The notes below the pieces were generated by a model. The model did no database searches. It was not told where the DNA came from and was given only the letters and a program-made list of their open reading frames with translations. A DNA stretch of 48,896 bases from Candidatus Bathyarchaeota archaeon (GTDB lineage: Archaea; Thermoproteota; Bathyarchaeia; Bathyarchaeales; SOJC01), in the NCBI GenBank assembly GCA_020352645.1, contig CP070683.1, forward strand, positions 571,357 to 620,252, read 5' to 3'. Shown here one piece after another: positions 10,783-23,379 of the stretch (its first letter is position 1; each line of letters opens with the position of its first letter). Position numbers and translations under genes: made by a program.

Positions 10783-13700
10783 TTAGGCGAAATCTGCAAG
10801 ACTCACTTGACGAGGCTTCTTACCTTCAAACAATGTGGAAATCTCATCCCTGACCAGCTCTATTCTTTGAAGATAGTATTTCGGGAGCTTATATTTCTCA
10901 ATGAGGAATTGAGCTGCCTCAAGATATTTCTCTATTCCACCCCGGTACACAGTAAGCGATAGTATACCGCCACATTTGGGGCACTTGCCCCTCAATGGTA
11001 TACGGCGAAAGCGTCTGTTACAGAGTCTGCAGCGAAAGCCCTGCGTCGAGAAAGCCCGCAGGTTCCCTGAAATGTCTCTGAGAAAGTGTTTAGTCAATAC
11101 TTTCCAAGCCACTTCTTTTGCGTTTACAGCTTCGATTTTTTCTGCAAGCTCAAGCTGTCCTTTCAGTTTATCTGTCATTTTTCTAAGCTTTTTATACATG
11201 CTTTCACGGTTTCCTAGATTGATGTTCGAAACAGGGACTGTAAAACCGAAGCCTTCAAACTGTGTCTCGGTGCCGAGTCGATCCGCAACCAAATCCACTA
11301 GGTTTCGGGTGTTCACAGAAGAGTTTTGTTTCAGGGTTGCTTTGTAGAACTCTGCTGAATAATGTCTAGATACGTCGAATTCGTGTGCTTGCCGCTGAAC
11401 TTCCAATGGATTCACAACGGGGATTAAGAAGAGTGGAGCATCCATTATGCCTCCTATCTGGGAGGGCAAATATGCTGTTGAGAAATTCAGCAGTGTATCA
11501 AGTGCAAGCATCAATGCGTCTTCATCACCATCACAATCGCGTCGCTTGGCAGAGTGCCAAAGGGGATGAGCGTAGCATACATTGAGTTTGGTGAAACCTG
11601 CCACACGACCTAGAATGCCCGCTGACGTGTGAGGAGCAAGACCTACAATTAGATTTCCGATCAGATCTTTCGGTTCTTTCACGTTGTAGTATTTTGGGAG
11701 CTTGTAAAGCCTCTCGAGAAGTTGATCTATAAACCTTGCAACACGAACAAAATACATCGCACATTTTCGCGGAATAATGACATCTTGCACCTTCAACTCG
11801 CATATTTGCTCTTTGTCGTTCAGAGGCTTATCCTCAATGTCGAAGAAGTAACCAAGCTGCTTCAGTTTGTCTATCGAAGCTTCAACTTCCTCAGGCTTGA
11901 AGTGGGTTAGAGGCGCGTTTGTAGCGTCGAAGCGGATTGTACCGTCCTTGTACACTGAGAGATCTTCTTTCGATCGCAAAATCCCTTTTTCAATGATTTC
12001 GGCACTCTTCTTTTCGTTTGTGAGGCCCTTCACCCCCTTGACCTTTCTCGGTGGTCTCATCTCCAATGCCTGACCGGCTTTGCGGATTTCAGCTTTAAGA
12101 TCGATGGTTTGAGGGGTGAAGCACTTGGTAGGAGCCTTGCAAGAAGGGCAGACATCGACCTCAACCTTTTTACCGCACAGTGGACAGTACTTTTCGAAAG
12201 CTGTTTCGTTGCTACATAACTGACATCTGGCTCCAGAAGCTGGCTTTCCGCACTTTAGGCAGCGTCTTCTCGCCAGTTCCACTCTAATAGGGCCTTTCTG
12301 GGAAGCTGAAATGAGGTCACGTTGTGAGCCTCCAGCTAGTCCTACAGGGAAAAGTAGATGGACCCGAGGCTTCATGTCTCGCCTTTTAGCCTTTTCAGGT
12401 CTACCCATACGTGCTCCCAGGATTGTTGGAGCCTTTGCCCGAATAGTTACGTCTGAAAGAGTATTTAGAGCATCCAGTGAAGACAGAGAGGCGTCAACGT
12501 GACGATCCTGCAAACCAAGGCCTAAGCTTGCGAAAACTGCATGTGCTGGTTCGCCATCTATTATTATCTTACCATCTTCAACACGGTGAGGCAGGCATAA
12601 GCGTTCTAGTATGCTTTTCACTCTTGCGTTTTCGTCAAACCGAATTCTTGAAGCTTGCCCATTGTCCTCTTTCACGCCGCGGCGCTTCAGGATCCACTGC
12701 CGCATTTCCTGCAGTTCTTGAGTCGTGATATGTGTCCAGAAGAAAGTGCAATGCGGGTGCAGAGGGACGCTAAGGAGTTTGGCTATGGTTACTGCTTCTG
12801 CGGCTTTTGGTTTGCACGTGTAAGGGTTGGCCAAGATTGTTTCGAGTCGTTTCTTTGGCATCTTTAGGTGTTTTGCTGCTTCTTCCATGTTGCTTTCAAA
12901 GCACTCAGCTATTCTAAGTTTTAGCTCAGTGCACCACCAATCTTCGGTGTATCCTGAAGGGCGAAGCTCTTTGTTGTTGTATAGGAAATCGCCAAAGCTT
13001 ATGAGTAGGTCGCCTAAGAATAGAATCTTAGCAATCTGATTTTTTATATCATGGATATTCTGGTCTGTGACCCGGGCAACTGAGCCATTCTTAAGCAACA
13101 CCACAGGCGGCTCGATCGTATCGACTGGCATAACGACGCCTCCTTTGCCTGGAAATTCTATCCGAATCTGCGTCCCCCCTGCAAGGAAACGATCAAGGAC
13201 CGTCATAGTCAAAGGATGAATTCCAACTGCGGCCAGTCCGGTGTTTCTTGCTCGACCATAGCGTAGACGGAATCCCCCTCGTTCAGAGGGAAATGAGAAA
13301 ATCGGGCGACCTGCAATAATGTCTTCCATGAAGCCCGCATTGTTTTCTGACTCTCTTGATCCTTCAGTATCTCCTAACTTTTGAAGCCAGTCCCAACCTT
13401 CAATTCCCAGCTTCTTGACTATTGTGGAAACCTTGGCGGCTCGCCCTATTACGCCATCATTCAGCACCCGTAGTGCTCCTCCACGAACACGATTGGTTTC
13501 TACTCGTGGCAGATTGCGAAAAGACTGTACCTCAACCGGGTTTGACTCTGTTCCAGTTACTTCCACGGGCAGTAGTTCCAAAGTCATTCGGAGGTCGTGA
13601 TCGCTAACATGATATTGAAAGCGTCCTACACTTCGTTCAAACAGTCTCATTTCCTCTATGAACCGATTGATCTCCTCTTCTGTGGGCTTGTAACGGTCTA

Positions 13701-14196
13701 ACCCAAGAAGGCGACGTACAAAGTCACCGACGACTAGAGTCAAAGCTTGGTCTGTACCACCAGCTGACCGAATTGGTCCAGCGTAGTATATTGCAAGGTA
13801 ATTCGATTGATCAGAATTGGTCTTTATGGCTATCCTTGCTATTCCCTGCAGAGGGGCTGCGGTGATTCCTTCTGTCAGAATGGCTAGAGCTGTTCGGACG
13901 GCTTGTTCGGCTGCGTCTTTAACTTCCAAGTGGCTGAATTTCCCATAGACAATTTCCTCAGCAATCTTGAAAGCGATTTCTTCACGGGGAAGCTTTTCAC
14001 TGAGTGTTCTAATACTCTCGGCGACTCCAGCAGGACCGACCAGCCCTTCCACGAGTTCGGCAAGATCCCTAGCGACTTTGGATTCGGGTTTCAAGGCAGG
14101 ATCAACACCTTTCCAGCGTGCTTTTGTGGCAATGTCAAAGAGTTCTCTTAACTCACTTTCTAGGGAAGATGTATATCGCTGCTGTTTTTCACTCAT
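10783..14196 (-). CDS. polC: DNA polymerase II (PolD) large subunit DP2
   Basis: About 1137 aa, the catalytic subunit of the archaeal replicative D-family polymerase. Visible family features are the N-terminal AxKARWKGVDP region, YYAGPIRSAGGTDQAL, HPLWHSAKRR, and the active-site motif DCDGDEDA (about 887-894), whose aspartates bind metal in the double-psi beta-barrel core. Several Cys4 zinc knuckles lie mid-protein and near 1056-1077. No intein interrupts it. The frame is open to a TTG at 14289, but family proteins begin near the ATG at 14196, which I chose; CCTTATACATG about 60 bp upstream may be its TATA box. Its partner DP1 is at 16757-18346. Confidence 0.97.
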   Translation of the reverse strand: MSEKQQRYTSSLESELRELFDIATKARWKGVDPALKPESKVARDLAELVEGLVGPAGVAESIRTLSEKLPREEIAFKIAEEIVYGKFSHLEVKDAAEQAVRTALAILTEGITAAPLQGIARIAIKTNSDQSNYLAIYYAGPIRSAGGTDQALTLVVGDFVRRLLGLDRYKPTEEEINRFIEEMRLFERSVGRFQYHVSDHDLRMTLELLPVEVTGTESNPVEVQSFRNLPRVETNRVRGGALRVLNDGVIGRAAKVSTIVKKLGIEGWDWLQKLGDTEGSRESENNAGFMEDIIAGRPIFSFPSERGGFRLRYGRARNTGLAAVGIHPLTMTVLDRFLAGGTQIRIEFPGKGGVVMPVDTIEPPVVLLKNGSVARVTDQNIHDIKNQIAKILFLGDLLISFGDFLYNNKELRPSGYTEDWWCTELKLRIAECFESNMEEAAKHLKMPKKRLETILANPYTCKPKAAEAVTIAKLLSVPLHPHCTFFWTHITTQELQEMRQWILKRRGVKEDNGQASRIRFDENARVKSILERLCLPHRVEDGKIIIDGEPAHAVFASLGLGLQDRHVDASLSSLDALNTLSDVTIRAKAPTILGARMGRPEKAKRRDMKPRVHLLFPVGLAGGSQRDLISASQKGPIRVELARRRCLKCGKPASGARCQLCSNETAFEKYCPLCGKKVEVDVCPSCKAPTKCFTPQTIDLKAEIRKAGQALEMRPPRKVKGVKGLTNEKKSAEIIEKGILRSKEDLSVYKDGTIRFDATNAPLTHFKPEEVEASIDKLKQLGYFFDIEDKPLNDKEQICELKVQDVIIPRKCAMYFVRVARFIDQLLERLYKLPKYYNVKEPKDLIGNLIVGLAPHTSAGILGRVAGFTKLNVCYAHPLWHSAKRRDCDGDEDALMLALDTLLNFSTAYLPSQIGGIMDAPLFLIPVVNPLEVQRQAHEFDVSRHYSAEFYKATLKQNSSVNTRNLVDLVADRLGTETQFEGFGFTVPVSNINLGNRESMYKKLRKMTDKLKGQLELAEKIEAVNAKEVAWKVLTKHFLRDISGNLRAFSTQGFRCRLCNRRFRRIPLRGKCPKCGGILSLTVYRGGIEKYLEAAQFLIEKYKLPKYYLQRIELVRDEISTLFEGKKPRQVSLADFA

Positions 14197-14386
14197 CCGT
14201 AGATGCAAGAAGCTCACACATTCACTGGAATTACCTGTTCGTATTTTGGGTTTTCTAACATGTATAAGGCTAAGGGTCTTGTCATCCAATGTCCAACATG
14301 AACTCGCAGCAAGGAAGATCTCTCACACCTAAAGAATTTTCTAGCTTTCCTTTAGCTGATCTTGCTCGAAGTGAAAAGGGAGCTTT

Positions 14387-16756: not shown

Positions 16757-18346
16757 GTGACGCCGACCGGCAATCAACTGGAGCTCAAGAGAGAGCGGGA
16801 TTGTGAGAGAGAAGTTCGGATCGCACTGTCTTCTTCCCTTAGCGCAGGTTTTCATATCGACGTTGAAGCATTCAACTTTCTCACGTTGATATCCAAAACG
16901 CAAAGCCCCGCTAAGCTTATAGAAGCAACTTTGAGCAAACTTCAAAAGCTTGAAGATAGTCCACTTTTCATTAGTAGAGATATTCTTGAAGAAACAGCAG
17001 AGGAGATATTTCCAGAGAAAGAAGAATCGAATGTACTTACCAAAGCCTCCGCTTCACGCGAGTCCCTAACAGGCAAACTGAAGAACGCTTTCATTCCAAG
17101 AGCAAGGGACATCCAGAAGGATGTAGTCGTTTTAGAAGACCCAACAACGAAGACTTGTTCAACAGGATCAATCGATGAGTATCTAGCTTGTTTCAAAGAC
17201 AGATTCCAACGAATGACTCGGCTGCTTCGGCGTAGAATGGATTCCCGCGATGCCATGACGATTAAAGACGCCTTCAGAGCAGCTCCTAAGACGAAAGTCA
17301 AGATAATCGCTATGGTGACTGAGAAACGTGAATCGCATCACGGAGTCTTTTTAAGAGTTGAAGACCTGCAATCGAGTACAACAGTGTTGATCCCAAGAAA
17401 CTCATCAAGAGAGCTACGTGAGCAGGCAAGGCTTCTATTGCCTGACCAAGTGATATGCTTGAGCTTAACAAAGAGCAGAAGAGGTTTGTTGATTGCTCAA
17501 GAACTCTTTTTCCCAGATATCCCTCGTAGAAAGCCTGCTGGAGCAAAAGAAGAAGTCTATGCTGCGTTAATATCTGATCTCCACGTGGGAAGCAGAGAGT
17601 GCATGGAGAGTGAATTCGCGCGATTTCTGCTATGGCTCAATGGAAAATACGGGAACAAGGACCTGAGAGATGTCGCTGGTCTGGTGAAATACGTCGTCAT
17701 TGCTGGTGATGTTGTAGATGGTATTGGCATTTATCCAAACCAAGTTGACGAACTGGAGGTACTTGATGTTTTTGAGCAGTATAAGAAAGCTGCAGGATTT
17801 ATTGAGCAGATACCGGATTACATTGAGGTTATTGTTATTCCTGGAAACCACGACGCATCTAGGAAAGCCTTGCCACAGCCTGCATTACCAAAAGATTATG
17901 CTGAGCCATTGTTCGAAAAGCGAGATATCATCTCGTTGGGAAACCCGTCAACTATAAGCCTCCACGGTGTGGAATGTCTTGTCTATCATGGGCGAAGTTT
18001 GGATGATGTATTGGCAACCGCTGCGGACATGGATTTTCATTCGCCTGAAAGGGCGATGCGCTTAATGTTGAGAAGTAGACATTTGGCACCGTCGTATGGT
18101 CAACGCACATTGATTGCTCCCGAAAGCAGAGACTTTCTCGTCATAGAGCGTATCCCAGATATTCTCCACGCAGGTCATGTGCACGTAATGAAACATTGCT
18201 TCTACAATGGAACCCTGCTGGTAAACTCTGGCGCTTGGCAAGGGCAAACAAGCTATCAAAGGAATTTAGGGCTAGAACCCACGCCGGGCATTGTTCCAGT
18301 AGTAAATCTTAAAACCCTTGCGGTCACACCAATTGACTTCACGTAA
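16757..18346 (+). CDS. polB: DNA polymerase II (PolD) small subunit DP1 (proofreading exonuclease)
   Basis: A 529-aa subunit with an N-terminal helical and linker part (1-170), an OB-fold region (about 180-255), and a C-terminal calcineurin-like phosphoesterase. Metal-site motifs are intact: SDLHVGS (D274, H276), AGDVVDG (D318), PGNHD (N364, H365), and GHVHV near 470, so it should be an active 3'-5' exonuclease. It starts with GTG 16757 after GGAAAGGAA. Its 3' end overlaps the convergent orc1/cdc6 gene by 8 bp. Together with DP2 it forms the replicative polymerase. Confidence 0.96.
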   Translation: MTPTGNQLELKRERDCEREVRIALSSSLSAGFHIDVEAFNFLTLISKTQSPAKLIEATLSKLQKLEDSPLFISRDILEETAEEIFPEKEESNVLTKASASRESLTGKLKNAFIPRARDIQKDVVVLEDPTTKTCSTGSIDEYLACFKDRFQRMTRLLRRRMDSRDAMTIKDAFRAAPKTKVKIIAMVTEKRESHHGVFLRVEDLQSSTTVLIPRNSSRELREQARLLLPDQVICLSLTKSRRGLLIAQELFFPDIPRRKPAGAKEEVYAALISDLHVGSRECMESEFARFLLWLNGKYGNKDLRDVAGLVKYVVIAGDVVDGIGIYPNQVDELEVLDVFEQYKKAAGFIEQIPDYIEVIVIPGNHDASRKALPQPALPKDYAEPLFEKRDIISLGNPSTISLHGVECLVYHGRSLDDVLATAADMDFHSPERAMRLMLRSRHLAPSYGQRTLIAPESRDFLVIERIPDILHAGHVHVMKHCFYNGTLLVNSGAWQGQTSYQRNLGLEPTPGIVPVVNLKTLAVTPIDFT

Positions 18347-19592
18347 GCTTGGTTGGCTTCAGCTTCAAACATGTGGGGGTGAAACCGTTCAGTTGTCCCA
18401 AATGGTTATCTTTAGAATATGCCTCTTTCAAGGCTCTCCGTGATATTGCTAGGCTTGTCTTCTTTGTTCTTCCATAACGACCTCTACTTATGACTGTTGA
18501 GTTCAACAATCCAATTGAGTCAAGTTCACTTATGAGAGTACTCACCCGCCTTTGCGTTAGGGCTGAGATTCCCAGTTCTCCGCAGATCTCACTGTAAACT
18601 TGATATATATCACCTGTTATGGAACTGAAAATACCTGCCTTTCTGATCAAGTGCACACTGTGAAGAGCAAGCTTTGAATGAATGGTCAAGTTTCTTATAG
18701 CCTCAATCACTCTATCGTGTTCTATTCTTCTTTCGGCTTCCCTAACATGCTCTTCAGTGATTCCCTCTGCGTTCTTCCTTTCAGCCACTTCACCTGCCAC
18801 TCGCAGCAAGTCGAGTGCTCGCCTTGCATCCCCATGCTGACTTGCAGCCAAAGCAGCACACAAGCTGAGAGCGCCATCATGGAGTTTGCCATTGGAAAAT
18901 GCTAGATCCGCCCTTTCACTTAGAATATCTTGAAGTTCAGATGCATTATAGGGGTTGAACAATACCTCTTCTTCACTCAAACTGCTCAATACACGAGATT
19001 CAAGCAATTCACGAAATCGCAAATCATTTGAGATTCCAACGATGGAAACTGCGCTGCCATCAAGCGACTCGTTTACGCGAGTTAGTTCATATAGAAGCAC
19101 GTTGCCTCTGGTTTTGATCATCTCATCAAGCTCATCCAACACAACTATCAGCGAAATCTGTAGGTTCTCTAATCCATCTTTGAGTCTATCAAAAACCTCA
19201 CCCACAGCGAGCCCAGTGAAAGGTACATGTATGTTTAGGGCATCACATATTTTCTTAAATGCTCTATATTCTGTACCCACCAGTCTACAGTTTACGTACG
19301 CCGTTCTAACGCATGCGCCAACCTCAGCAGCTTTTTGAACTAGCCGCTGCAAAACAAACTTTATGACCGCGGTTTTCCCTGTACCCGTCTCACCATAAAT
19401 GAATATGTTTGAGCACCTATTCTCTCTTAAGAGCGGTGCAACTACCATTCCCACATTCTTTACCTGTTCTTCACGGTGAGGCAGTCTTCCAGGGAGATAT
19501 TCATGGCGGAGTACATCCCTATCCTTAAAGACACCGGCATCATTCAGGAACCTTTCAAACACATCATTAAGAGTATCCACTTCTCCTTGCAT
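18339..19592 (-). CDS. cdc6: Orc1/Cdc6 replication initiator
   Basis: About 417 aa from the ATG at 19592, chosen because GGGAGGGAAGG lies just upstream; an extra open frame to 19661 lacks this. It is an AAA+ ATPase with Walker A GETGTGKT (67-74), Walker B VVLDELDEM, a sensor region near GISNDLRF and arginine-rich HGDARRALDLLR. A C-terminal winged helix (about 300-400) binds origin DNA. It is read away from a ~770-bp non-coding stretch with ORB-like elements, the typical archaeal initiator-next-to-origin arrangement. Confidence 0.95.
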   Translation of the reverse strand: MQGEVDTLNDVFERFLNDAGVFKDRDVLRHEYLPGRLPHREEQVKNVGMVVAPLLRENRCSNIFIYGETGTGKTAVIKFVLQRLVQKAAEVGACVRTAYVNCRLVGTEYRAFKKICDALNIHVPFTGLAVGEVFDRLKDGLENLQISLIVVLDELDEMIKTRGNVLLYELTRVNESLDGSAVSIVGISNDLRFRELLESRVLSSLSEEEVLFNPYNASELQDILSERADLAFSNGKLHDGALSLCAALAASQHGDARRALDLLRVAGEVAERKNAEGITEEHVREAERRIEHDRVIEAIRNLTIHSKLALHSVHLIRKAGIFSSITGDIYQVYSEICGELGISALTQRRVSTLISELDSIGLLNSTVISRGRYGRTKKTSLAISRRALKEAYSKDNHLGQLNGFTPTCLKLKPTKLT

Positions 19593-19784
19593 AACAGACC
19601 TTCCCTCCCTTTCAGCAAATGCAGTTGCAGCCGCTAAGTTCAAGTGCCAACAGATAAGCACTCTTCTACAAAAAAATAGAGAGCTGCTCTAGAGCACGAA
19701 AGAAGTCCCTCTGGTGTCTCACTCTTACACACATTTCTCGTCTGTGGACCCAATGAAACGTTATCATAGTCTGAAGTGCACTCT

Positions 19785-19810
19785 GGGACACCCCTTCATT
19801 TCTCGTAGAA
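19785..19810 (-). promoter_or_regulatory. ORB-like element A
   Basis: On the minus strand this reads GAGAAATGAAGGGGTGTCC, close to the archaeal ORB core GGAAACnAAGGGGGT. It faces away from elements B and C. Confidence 0.55.
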
Positions 19811-20008
19811 TCCCCAGAAAAGGGTTAGTAAAATGTAGGATTCTTTCTGGCTAGAAAGAATATACCCTGATTGGTTTGTGGTTAAAGCACTTTTAACTAC
19901 ATCCATCGAAATTTCTTAACTAAAAGATACTCTATGATTGACAAAATACAGCTAATCAGATTTTCATGGAGCAAAACCTCGCCCAATTGCGGGCGGGCAT
20001 GTAGCTTC

Positions 20009-20034
20009 TTTCATCGGAAATCAAGGGGGGAAGG
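20009..20034 (+). promoter_or_regulatory. ORB-like element B
   Basis: The plus strand reads TCGGAAATCAAGGGGGG, sharing GAAATnAAGGGG with element A in the opposite orientation. It directly follows a short GC-rich palindrome (GCCCAATTGCGGGC, 19981-19994). Confidence 0.55.
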
Positions 20035-20042
20035 AAGAAGCC

Positions 20043-20075
20043 AAGTTCACAGCGATGTGAAAAGACCGTGAACTT
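20043..20075. repeat. Inverted repeat in the candidate origin
   Basis: AAGTTCAC (20043-20050) and GTGAACTT (20068-20075) are exact inverted copies separated by 17 bases. They lie between ORB-like elements B and C. Confidence 0.7.
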
Positions 20076-20147
20076 AAGCGTTTTCATGGAATTTCGACTT
20101 GATTAATCGCCGATTCTTGTATTCTATGTGGCTATTTTGGGTGAAGA

Positions 20148-20174
20148 GGACACCCCCTTGTTTCCTCTGGAGAT
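20148..20174 (-). promoter_or_regulatory. ORB-like element C
   Basis: On the minus strand this reads CCAGAGGAAACAAGGGGG followed by TGTCC, the best match of the three to the archaeal ORB consensus (CCAGTGGAAACnAAGGGGGT). It shares the TGTCC extension with element A. Confidence 0.6.
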
Positions 20175-20365
20175 TAGAAGATGTTTCATCAACATCCCGC
20201 ATTCAGTGGCAGGACGATATGTGAACCCTGTTAAACCAGAGAGAGTGAGAAAATCAACGCTAAAGATTTTTTAAGCCCATTTCAACCCTCTTTTTCAAGA
20301 TTCCATTTCTCAAAACAACTATAACTTGTGAAAGCTAACGTGAATGTAATGCACAGATGGTATAA

Positions 20366-20785
20366 ATGGCCGTGAAGAAGATTAAAGCGGAGATTTTCGA
20401 CGGTGATGGAAATCGTTACACAATATCACTAGAAGGCAAAGTTTCAAGGAGGGCAGCCCTGCGATTGCTGGATCTCATTGAACTATTAGGAGGGATGCCT
20501 GATGAAGCGGAGCCACAATCTTGTCTGACTGGATCCTCGAAGTTTGACAAGACCATGTTTGTCGTAGAGAAACACTTCCCTTTTGCATGGTTCACTTCAA
20601 AAGAGATCCTTGAAACATACGAGCAAGACTTCAAAGAGAAGATTTCTCTCAGTACGATATCAACATACCTGGGTAGGATGGCTGACCGTGGATTCTTGAC
20701 GAAAGGAGGACACTCTAACAACAAGAAGTATAAAGCAGTGACAGGAGTAGCGCAAAACGTGCTAACAAATGACGAAAATGGATAA
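20366..20785 (+). CDS. Uncharacterised protein with a C-terminal winged helix
   Basis: A 139-aa protein not assigned to a named family. Residues 1-40 form a short beta/alpha region (KKIKAEIFDGDGNRYTISLE). About 65-130 resembles a winged helix-turn-helix, with SLSTISTYLGRMADRGFL as recognition helix and a basic wing (KGGHSNNKKYKA). It is the first gene on the right of the candidate origin, just before nurA-herA on the same strand, so it may be a DNA-binding partner of replication or repair genes. A TATA-like AACTATAACT lies about 45 bp upstream. Confidence 0.7.
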   Translation: MAVKKIKAEIFDGDGNRYTISLEGKVSRRAALRLLDLIELLGGMPDEAEPQSCLTGSSKFDKTMFVVEKHFPFAWFTSKEILETYEQDFKEKISLSTISTYLGRMADRGFLTKGGHSNNKKYKAVTGVAQNVLTNDENG

Positions 20786-20861
20786 AAGAAAGTGACGCAA
20801 AAGCATTTACACTGCGGCCTTTTATCTCAACCTCCCAGCTAGTTGTGGAGAAGCTGAAGGA

Positions 20862-21848
20862 ATGAATAGCGACACTAAAAGTGCTCTCACCGAAATGACG
20901 CGAATATTGACAAGCTATGCTCAAGGAGGGCCCGCTATAAGCATTAAAGAGGTGAAAGACGAACTAACTGTAGCTTTGGCACCTTCCTTGGCCAACATAA
21001 TCAGACTTCCAAAACCAAAGAGTTGTAGCGCCCGCTTTTTTGCAGTGGACTGCTCAACTAGAACGTTAAAGAGAGCAAACAATTGGGGAATATACCTGCT
21101 ACGCACTTCCTATGCAACTGTCGAAGAGAAGAATGTAGATTGGAGCTTCAGGGAGAGAATCCGGACAATACAGGGAGATCCGTATGTGCGTCGCAAGGTT
21201 CTTCAGGAAACGCGGCTTCAAATGGAGAGTGAAATGGCACTCGATCTAGTCAACCTAGCAGACGAAAACGACTACATTCTTCTGGATGGAGCCAGCTACT
21301 TTGGCGGAGGGAGTAGGTTTAACACAGTATTATACGAGAAATGTAAAGAAAAAAGCATAAATCTTCTTGCAGTCAGCAAGCAATCACCAAAGCTTCACGA
21401 CGAGAAAGGAAGGGACCTCATCGCTGCGACGTACATGCTAGCGCCTAGGGAATGCTGGATCTATTATCCGGTCAAAAAGGCCAACATTCATGAGCATCTC
21501 TACGGTGACATCTCAATAGTCAAGCTGTGCGTAGATAGTCCTCGAGCTTTTAGGTGCGACATAATGAGATACCTAGCTCACTGTGATATACCCGAGTTGA
21601 TTTCGCCGCTTTGCGCAATTTCAGAAGACCCTAGGTGTTTGGGTTATCCTGTCGCCCTCTGGTTAGCGCACGATTTCTCCGGAGTTTCTGAAGCAAAACT
21701 CCTTGAATATCACACTCAAGTCGAAGAGGAATTGGCTAGAGCAGGATTGCTCGATCTAATTCGCCAAGAAGAGCTGGCGTGTAGTTTCGCTGGTGAAGTC
21801 CATGGGGTGCGACACCTATTTAGCTGGGAGTTGATTGACAATGTCTGA
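20862..21848 (+). CDS. nurA: NurA-family 5'-3' nuclease
   Basis: A 328-aa protein of the NurA family, which resects DNA ends together with the HerA translocase in archaeal recombination repair. The expected metal-binding acids are present: D63 in FAVDCS, glutamates near 122-124, D142 in LLDGASYF, and a His (about 318) in the C-terminal VRHLFSWE. It overlaps the start of herA by 8 bp, so the two products are made together. Mre11 and Rad50, often in the same cluster, are not in this window. Confidence 0.88.
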   Translation: MNSDTKSALTEMTRILTSYAQGGPAISIKEVKDELTVALAPSLANIIRLPKPKSCSARFFAVDCSTRTLKRANNWGIYLLRTSYATVEEKNVDWSFRERIRTIQGDPYVRRKVLQETRLQMESEMALDLVNLADENDYILLDGASYFGGGSRFNTVLYEKCKEKSINLLAVSKQSPKLHDEKGRDLIAATYMLAPRECWIYYPVKKANIHEHLYGDISIVKLCVDSPRAFRCDIMRYLAHCDIPELISPLCAISEDPRCLGYPVALWLAHDFSGVSEAKLLEYHTQVEEELARAGLLDLIRQEELACSFAGEVHGVRHLFSWELIDNV

Positions 21849-23379
21849 CAATTTGGGCTCAGTATGTGATGTGCAGGGAGACAAAGTTTCTTTTTTTCTA
21901 AAGAAAGACTTGCATCTCTCATTCGGCCAGATAGTTAAGATAGACTCGAATGGGAGCGACTTTTATGCTCGCGTTGTAAATGCGCAGAGCAAATCCACTT
22001 TGGACACTGGGGAACAACTTCGCGAAGCAGATGGGAAAGAAGCTTTCGGTCCATACTCTTCCTACAAAAGCGTAGAAGCAATGCTTTTTCTTGAGAGCAA
22101 GGCTGGAAGGGTGCGATCTCCAATTTTCAATCCCAACTACATGGACACGGTCTACCCGATGAACGCTGAGGACGCAAAGATGTTGAGACTTGCAGGAGAA
22201 CTCGAAATCGGCAACCTGCGCTCTGGGGGAGAGACCCTTGGATCAGTAGGCGTAGACATCAATGCAATACCTCGTATGATGGGAATGTTTGGAATGACAG
22301 GATCAGGTAAGACTAATGCGGAACTGATGATTAATGCACATATAATCGACAACAGCCCAAGAACCGCAGGTCTGATCTTCGATTTCGCGGGGCAATTGCT
22401 AGAAGGGAAGGAACTCGGGAACAAAGGGTTGTGCAACCACCCGCTCTTTCACAGCAAAGTGAGTTTCTATAGTACGAAAGAGGAAAAAATGCGTGTTGGA
22501 CTTCGAACACTCCAGCCTTGGAAACTGAGAAATCTGTATTCCGATATTACTGATCCCCAATATCGACTGGCTCAGAAACTTCATAGAAGATTCGGGGATG
22601 AATGGATCGAGAAAACATGTGAAAAGTACGAACTAAGCGGGCCAAGCGGTGTGGCAGAAACGGTGCCAGCTCACAAAGGAACAATCAATGCGTTACTGCA
22701 AAAACTAACACACTTAGATCCAAGGCTTTTTCCACCATCGAAATACAGTTTCATCGACCAAGTTACCAAAGACATTACCCAAGGCGTCACCTGCCTCGTT
22801 GACATTTCAGGTGTCACTGTTGAAGAACAGCGCCACATTGTCTGCCTTACTGCGTCAGGCGTTTCAAACTATTATAAACGGAGTTGGGAATCTGACTATG
22901 AACGATGGCTGAAGCTTCCAACATTGCTCATAACCTTGGAGGAAGCTCATGAGTTTCTTGACCCCACAAGAGAGAGAACGATTTTCTCCGATATTGCTCT
23001 AACCTATAGAAAATATCGTGTCGGGATTAATGCTGTGACTCCTCGTCCTTCGCGAGTTAATCCGGATGTGTTTGCAGAACTGTGGACCAAGTTGGTCATG
23101 AAGACAGAGCTGAAAGCCGACAGAGATTTCCTCACAAGGAACACTCCATATCTCGAATATAGCGATACTGAAATAAAGATGCTTGATATTGGTGAAGCAC
23201 TGCTGATATCAGAGCCGAAGATACGCTTTGCGGTGCCTGTGAAAGTGAAGCATTACCCAGGGTATTTGGCGAATAGAGAGACGGCTGACTATGATCTCCC
23301 GCAATCAGATCTTCTTGAGAAACTGGATAAAAGACTGAAGAAGTTGCAACATGCGAATGAGGATTCAGGCATCACTTGA
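21841..23379 (+). CDS. herA: HerA-family DNA translocase ATPase
   Basis: A 512-aa hexameric FtsK/HerA-type ATPase. An N-terminal beta-rich HAS-barrel region (1-90) is followed by Walker A GMTGSGKT (151-158) and Walker B TLLITLEEAHEF (361-372), then the conserved C-terminal RKYRVGINAVTPRPSRVNPDV region. I prefer ATG 21841 over an in-frame TTG at 21835 because GGGAG sits about 10 nt before it. It moves DNA through the ring to feed NurA. It is the last plus-strand gene here and converges with a coiled-coil gene. Confidence 0.92.
   Translation: MSDNLGSVCDVQGDKVSFFLKKDLHLSFGQIVKIDSNGSDFYARVVNAQSKSTLDTGEQLREADGKEAFGPYSSYKSVEAMLFLESKAGRVRSPIFNPNYMDTVYPMNAEDAKMLRLAGELEIGNLRSGGETLGSVGVDINAIPRMMGMFGMTGSGKTNAELMINAHIIDNSPRTAGLIFDFAGQLLEGKELGNKGLCNHPLFHSKVSFYSTKEEKMRVGLRTLQPWKLRNLYSDITDPQYRLAQKLHRRFGDEWIEKTCEKYELSGPSGVAETVPAHKGTINALLQKLTHLDPRLFPPSKYSFIDQVTKDITQGVTCLVDISGVTVEEQRHIVCLTASGVSNYYKRSWESDYERWLKLPTLLITLEEAHEFLDPTRERTIFSDIALTYRKYRVGINAVTPRPSRVNPDVFAELWTKLVMKTELKADRDFLTRNTPYLEYSDTEIKMLDIGEALLISEPKIRFAVPVKVKHYPGYLANRETADYDLPQSDLLEKLDKRLKKLQHANEDSGIT

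Follow-up and report, generated by a model that had tools for sequence, protein, structure and literature searches.

Archaeal replication origins have a published mark: repeats of the origin recognition box (ORB) that are sited at the orc1 gene and flank AT-rich DNA (PMC4010727, PMC4164010). In Sulfolobus oriC1, ORB2 and ORB3 are arranged around the unwinding element (PMC12141716). At euryarchaeal origins, the pairing of orc1 with the gene of the DNA polymerase D (PolD) small subunit is known (PMC2643942), and the accessory elements of haloarchaeal oriC1 consist of a G-rich repeat inside the ORBs and a downstream ORB cluster (PMC4010727). Ori-Finder 2 gives the common ORB motif as TCCA[CG]T[TG]GAAA[TC][GA]AAGGGGT and reports a GGGGT string in Methanomicrobia and Sulfolobaceae, as opposed to Thermococcaceae (PMC4164010). 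Bathyarchaeia are a large archaeal class whose members are mostly uncultured; in the open-access literature that we searched, judged by title and abstract, no mapped origin was found for them.

The locus described here is part of a Bathyarchaeia genome of 1.68 Mb (single contig, 91% complete); the window, which is the whole stretch of 48,896 nucleotides that was analysed, corresponds to positions 571357-620252 of this contig. Judged by its sequence, the gene-free region between orc1/cdc6 and a divergent winged-helix gene is very probably a chromosomal replication origin of the Orc1-1/ORB type, and the proposal of the initial annotation that the region is a candidate origin is thus supported. 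As to its kind, the putative origin is a familiar one, an Orc1-1-type oriC: its ORB trio is conserved and has no further matches in the genome, and ORBs A and B stand in inverted orientation on either side of the stability minimum, as in Sulfolobus oriC1. All features are listed in Table 1.

The likeness to Sulfolobus oriC1 comprises three ORBs beside orc1-1, two of them inverted and flanking an AT-rich segment (PMC12141716), and extends to the initiator: the closest solved structure to the Orc1 protein is 2qby_A (S. solfataricus Orc1-1; E 1e-110), with 2v1u_A (A. pernix ORC1) also close. Unlike Sulfolobus oriC1, the locus has a rigid array of TTCACA hexamers around its third ORB, is flanked by the PolD genes and by a winged-helix/NurA/HerA cluster, and is the one ORB cluster of its genome. 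With the oriC of Pyrococcus and other Euryarchaeota it shares a single cdc6-linked origin beside DP1, with DP2 nearby (PMC2643942, PMC4010727), but here DP1 is convergent with orc1, the ORBs have the GGGGT string, and Thermococcus loci are devoid of the TTCACA array. Haloarchaeal oriC1 resembles it in having an accessory sequence near the ORBs that tunes the origin (PMC4010727), but the sequence (TTCACA) and its fixed arrangement are different here.

Table 1. Features of the putative replication origin and its surroundings (positions are those of the window)
Feature	Position	Strand	Remarks
DNA polymerase D large subunit (DP2)	10783..14289	-	NF003103 and TIGR00354 above cut-offs
DNA polymerase D small subunit (DP1)	16757..18346	+	NF003118 above cut-off; convergent with orc1
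orc1/cdc6 initiator gene, Orc1-1 type	18339..19592	-	417 aa; Pfam Cdc6_lid, Cdc6_C; TIGR02928
Gene-free region, putative origin	19593..20365		773 bp, between orc1/cdc6 and winged-helix gene, divergent
Weak fourth ORB-like element	19628..19649	-	-57 of orc1, inside probable core promoter
ORB A	19789..19810	-	22-mer GAAATGAAGGGG (TTCTACGAGAAATGAAGGGGTG); place and orientation as in relatives
AT-richer segment, candidate duplex unwinding element	19811..20008		between inverted ORBs A and B; minimum stability centred 19927
ORB B	20009..20030	+	22-mer GAAATCAAGGGG (TTTCATCGGAAATCAAGGGGGG); inverted relative to A
Opposite-strand TTCACA	20046..20051	+	faces +111 site (TTCACA-n4-TGTGAA)
TTCACA array site	20056..20061	-	+111 from ORB C
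Array site TTCACG (TTCAC)	20067..20072	-	+100 from ORB C
Array site TTCACC (TTCAC)	20140..20145	-	+27 from ORB C
ORB C	20151..20172	-	22-mer GAAACAAGGGG (CTCCAGAGGAAACAAGGGGGTG); strongest of three, 20 bits
TTCACA array site	20220..20225	-	-53 from ORB C
Degenerate array site TTAACA	20229..20234	-	-62 from ORB C
TTCACA array site	20327..20332	-	-160 from ORB C
Array site TTCACG (TTCAC)	20339..20344	-	-172 from ORB C
Origin-linked winged-helix protein gene	20366..20785	+	139 aa, single copy; candidate TTCACA-array binder
NurA-like nuclease gene	20862..21848	+	PF09376; only NurA found in genome
HerA-like ATPase gene	21835..23379	+	PF01935

The region itself has no ORF of at least 80 aa, and Rfam has no match across 18300-21500. 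It ends at the orc1 start codon (ATG at 19592), a start position common to relatives. Named records with related Orc1 proteins (53-70% identity, from a contig scan with alignment) are mostly from Bathyarchaeota. One Orc1/Cdc6 copy was found in this genome; a second was found neither here nor in the relative G005, while most relatives have a second, distant Orc1/Cdc6 with about 28% identity. Archaeal nurA and herA genes are known to cluster with rad50 and mre11; here, the NurA-HerA pair (20862-23379, plus strand) adjoins the origin.

The three G-run elements in mixed orientation that the initial annotation had seen upstream of orc1 are real: the pattern GRAANNAAGGGG has nine sites in the entire genome, and three of these nine are within the gap (Poisson P ~1e-8). 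The true ORB element is longer than this G-run core and consists of a dyad plus the G-string (TTCCAGTGGAAAnnNAGGGGT). The TGTCC extension described for two of the elements is present on A and C, and this tail is peculiar to this genome. With up to three mismatches, the common ORB motif of Ori-Finder 2 (PMC4164010) matches the window at A and C alone (three and two mismatches, respectively; 0.03 matches expected), B being too degenerate for a match at three; relatives of this genome have close matches to this motif. Judged by sequence, all three elements are origin recognition boxes.

A sequence-only ORB model of 30 positions was built from 66 aligned ORBs of 22 relatives, leaving this genome out. 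Run over this genome, it recovers exactly three matches with E <= 10, namely A, B and C (with rough E-values, and with scores for 150 of the 576 first-look candidates); A and B score only 12.6-12.7 bits each. The best matches to the model in a further nine genomes, two of which (G055 and G060) come from outside the training set, are likewise the trio at orc1, and there is no comparable ORB cluster near the second Orc1 of these genomes in the same search. This suggests, at the level of sequence, one ORB-type origin per chromosome. The motif that the initial annotation had proposed to look for at other orc1/cdc6 loci is present there rather than absent: across the 29 loci whose flank is long enough (the present one is among them), the trio recurs without exception, always ordered +/-/+ in the sense of orc1 and usually located at about -550, -390 and -200 relative to orc1, and most named Bathyarchaeota loci have a matching arrangement. 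The weak fourth element is degenerate in this genome and better preserved in family members (the model has weak matches there in G005 and G002). One contig with a Bathyarchaeia-type orc1 and ORBs (L044, QNCD01000150.1) is labelled as Omnitrophota bacterium, probably as a result of a binning error.

The segment between A and B had been called AT-rich: its AT content is modest (63%), yet the 80-bp stability minimum of the entire window is located here. This minimum lies between the inverted boxes A and B; the A-B interval contains the minimum in 21 of 23 loci.

Strand asymmetry gives an equivocal picture and is neither proof nor refutation of an origin. Skew was calculated from sampled stretches that cover 58% of this genome and about 20% of three relatives. 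In this genome (at 58%), the cumulative GC minimum is at ~168 kb and the GGGT minimum at ~462 kb, the GC3 lead-lag contrast, which peaks at ~200 kb, is close to zero at the locus, and the TA3 contrast peaks at ~520 kb; the locus is at 591 kb. Scans of GC, GC3, TA3, GGGT and gene orientation in the sampled parts of this genome and of G002 and G003 have no common origin position. The skew analysis suggested in the initial annotation is equivocal for this genome, where the measures disagree with one another. In one complete relative, G024 (sampled), gene orientation agrees with an origin at orc1: the bias in coding strand switches at this gene (61% leading; block-permutation P 0.007 with the site fixed and 0.097 in a free scan).

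Three features of the locus go beyond the initial annotation: an array of TTCACA sites, a winged-helix neighbour that is conserved and, in the promoter of orc1, the weak fourth box. TTCACA is the top over-represented hexamer of orc1-upstream regions (115 observed, 14.2 expected, z 27); the ORB core AGGGGT ranks below it (63 observed versus 5.9 expected). In 39 Bathyarchaeia loci it recurs at seven constant distances, counted from the first base of ORB C: -174, -159, -63, -53, +27, +100 and +111; 168 of 198 sites are in orc1 sense. On average, 5.8 of the seven places match in at least five of six bases, compared to 0.88 for random offsets; a tolerance of 2 bp was allowed, and the 39 loci that were scored, this one among them, are also those from which the offsets were derived. 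In this genome all seven places are present, as 5/6 or 6/6 matches, and TTCACA is mostly outside the A-B segment; across the genome, the background density of the hexamer is 0.62 per 760 bp. The start codon of the winged-helix gene is at a variable distance from ORB C, with a spread of about 70 bp (~167 to 240 bp), and the array is therefore tied to ORB C and not to this start codon. Tandem TTCACA pairs alone are not origin-specific: genome-wide in eight genomes, 8 of 23 are at origins. TTCACA is dense at the origins of Caldarchaeum-like genomes and Calditenuaceae as well, and near zero at the orc1 loci of Thermococcus, Archaeoglobi and most methanogens. Our literature search found no description of a rigid TTCACA array at origins, and, judged by title, only unrelated works for TTCACA in the archaeal literature.

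The winged-helix gene is next to the origin in almost every Bathyarchaeia locus that has flank, and there is one copy per genome. The protein has no Pfam family above threshold; its fold is predicted to comprise a beta-hairpin, a helix and a winged helix (pLDDT 78), and a comparison of this fold with solved structures gave no PDB match below 1e-3. An identity with WhiP/Cdt1 was considered but not accepted: one winged helix is predicted, and the C-terminus of Cdt1 was found at rank 25 with an E-value of 8.5e-3, which is not significant. In three lineages with orc1 elsewhere (L152, L153 and L155), the outer TTCACA pair has stayed at the winged-helix gene, in two of the three together with an ORB. 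In L152 and L155 the ORB at the winged-helix gene is ORB C, orc1 is kilobases away and the other ORBs are near the PolD small-subunit gene: these two lineages have a rearranged origin region.

The sequence shows which elements are present, where and in which orientation they stand, how well they are conserved and how specific they are genome-wide; from this we infer how the origin may be bound, melted and fired. Orc1 from the adjoining gene would bind all three ORBs. Of these, A and B point towards each other from either side of the least stable DNA, where the duplex would be melted and MCM loaded. Box C and the fixed TTCACA array would act as a second module, to which Orc1 and another protein would probably bind together, and via the weak ORB in its promoter, orc1 would probably be autoregulated.

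The boxes could instead be Orc1 operators, regulating orc1 and the divergent winged-helix-nurA-herA genes, with a chromosome that starts replication elsewhere or is origin-free. The skew of this genome, which has no peak at the locus, is in line with this, as are the weak ORB in the orc1 promoter and the example of Thermococcus kodakarensis, for which replication without Cdc6 or origin has been published (PMC5663688). Against it stand the lack of other ORBs in the genome in the model search, the inverted pair around the least stable DNA in 21 of 23 loci and the flip in gene orientation at the locus of G024, and the siting of the repeats at orc1 around AT-rich DNA is itself the published sign of an origin (PMC4010727, PMC4164010). 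We thus regard the operator explanation as highly improbable.

For the TTCACA array, the choice is less clear. The adjacent winged-helix protein is our first candidate for its binder, although we put this forward tentatively. The array may be only an operator by which the winged-helix gene regulates itself, with no replication role, and this is a real possibility, albeit short of probable: the outer pair is just upstream of the winged-helix start and is retained there in the three lineages with a distant orc1. Against this, the array spans ~300 bp to beyond ORB C with offsets fixed to this box, while the distance to the start codon varies, and Caldarchaeum-like genomes and Calditenuaceae have TTCACA at the origin, not at the winged-helix gene. 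In Caldarchaeum-like genomes, this gene is found elsewhere and its promoter has no TTCACA enrichment; TTCACA as an autoregulatory site in every lineage was accordingly rejected. The imperfect linkage between gene and hexamer counts against the winged-helix protein as binder and also fits a further explanation, that the sites bind an abundant nucleoid protein instead, acting like UBP at ucm, an 11-bp element in the unwinding segment of Sulfolobales origins (precedent in PMC12141716). We consider this possible but rather unlikely: full-length winged-helix homologues are present in all TTCACA-rich groups tested, and in the Thermococcus and Archaeoglobus genomes tested, neither a homologue nor TTCACA enrichment was found. 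Returning to the winged-helix protein as binder, origins of Bathyarchaeia might use it as a second factor on a rigid TTCACA array around one ORB, a two-protein origin code that Caldarchaeum-like genomes would have in a looser form; this, too, is a doubtful proposal at present.

The origin coordinates allow direct tests in this archaeal class: growth-rate estimates from read depth, ori plasmids and footprinting of Orc1. The TTCACA array, in turn, points to an undescribed second origin-binding activity, for which there is a concrete gene candidate.
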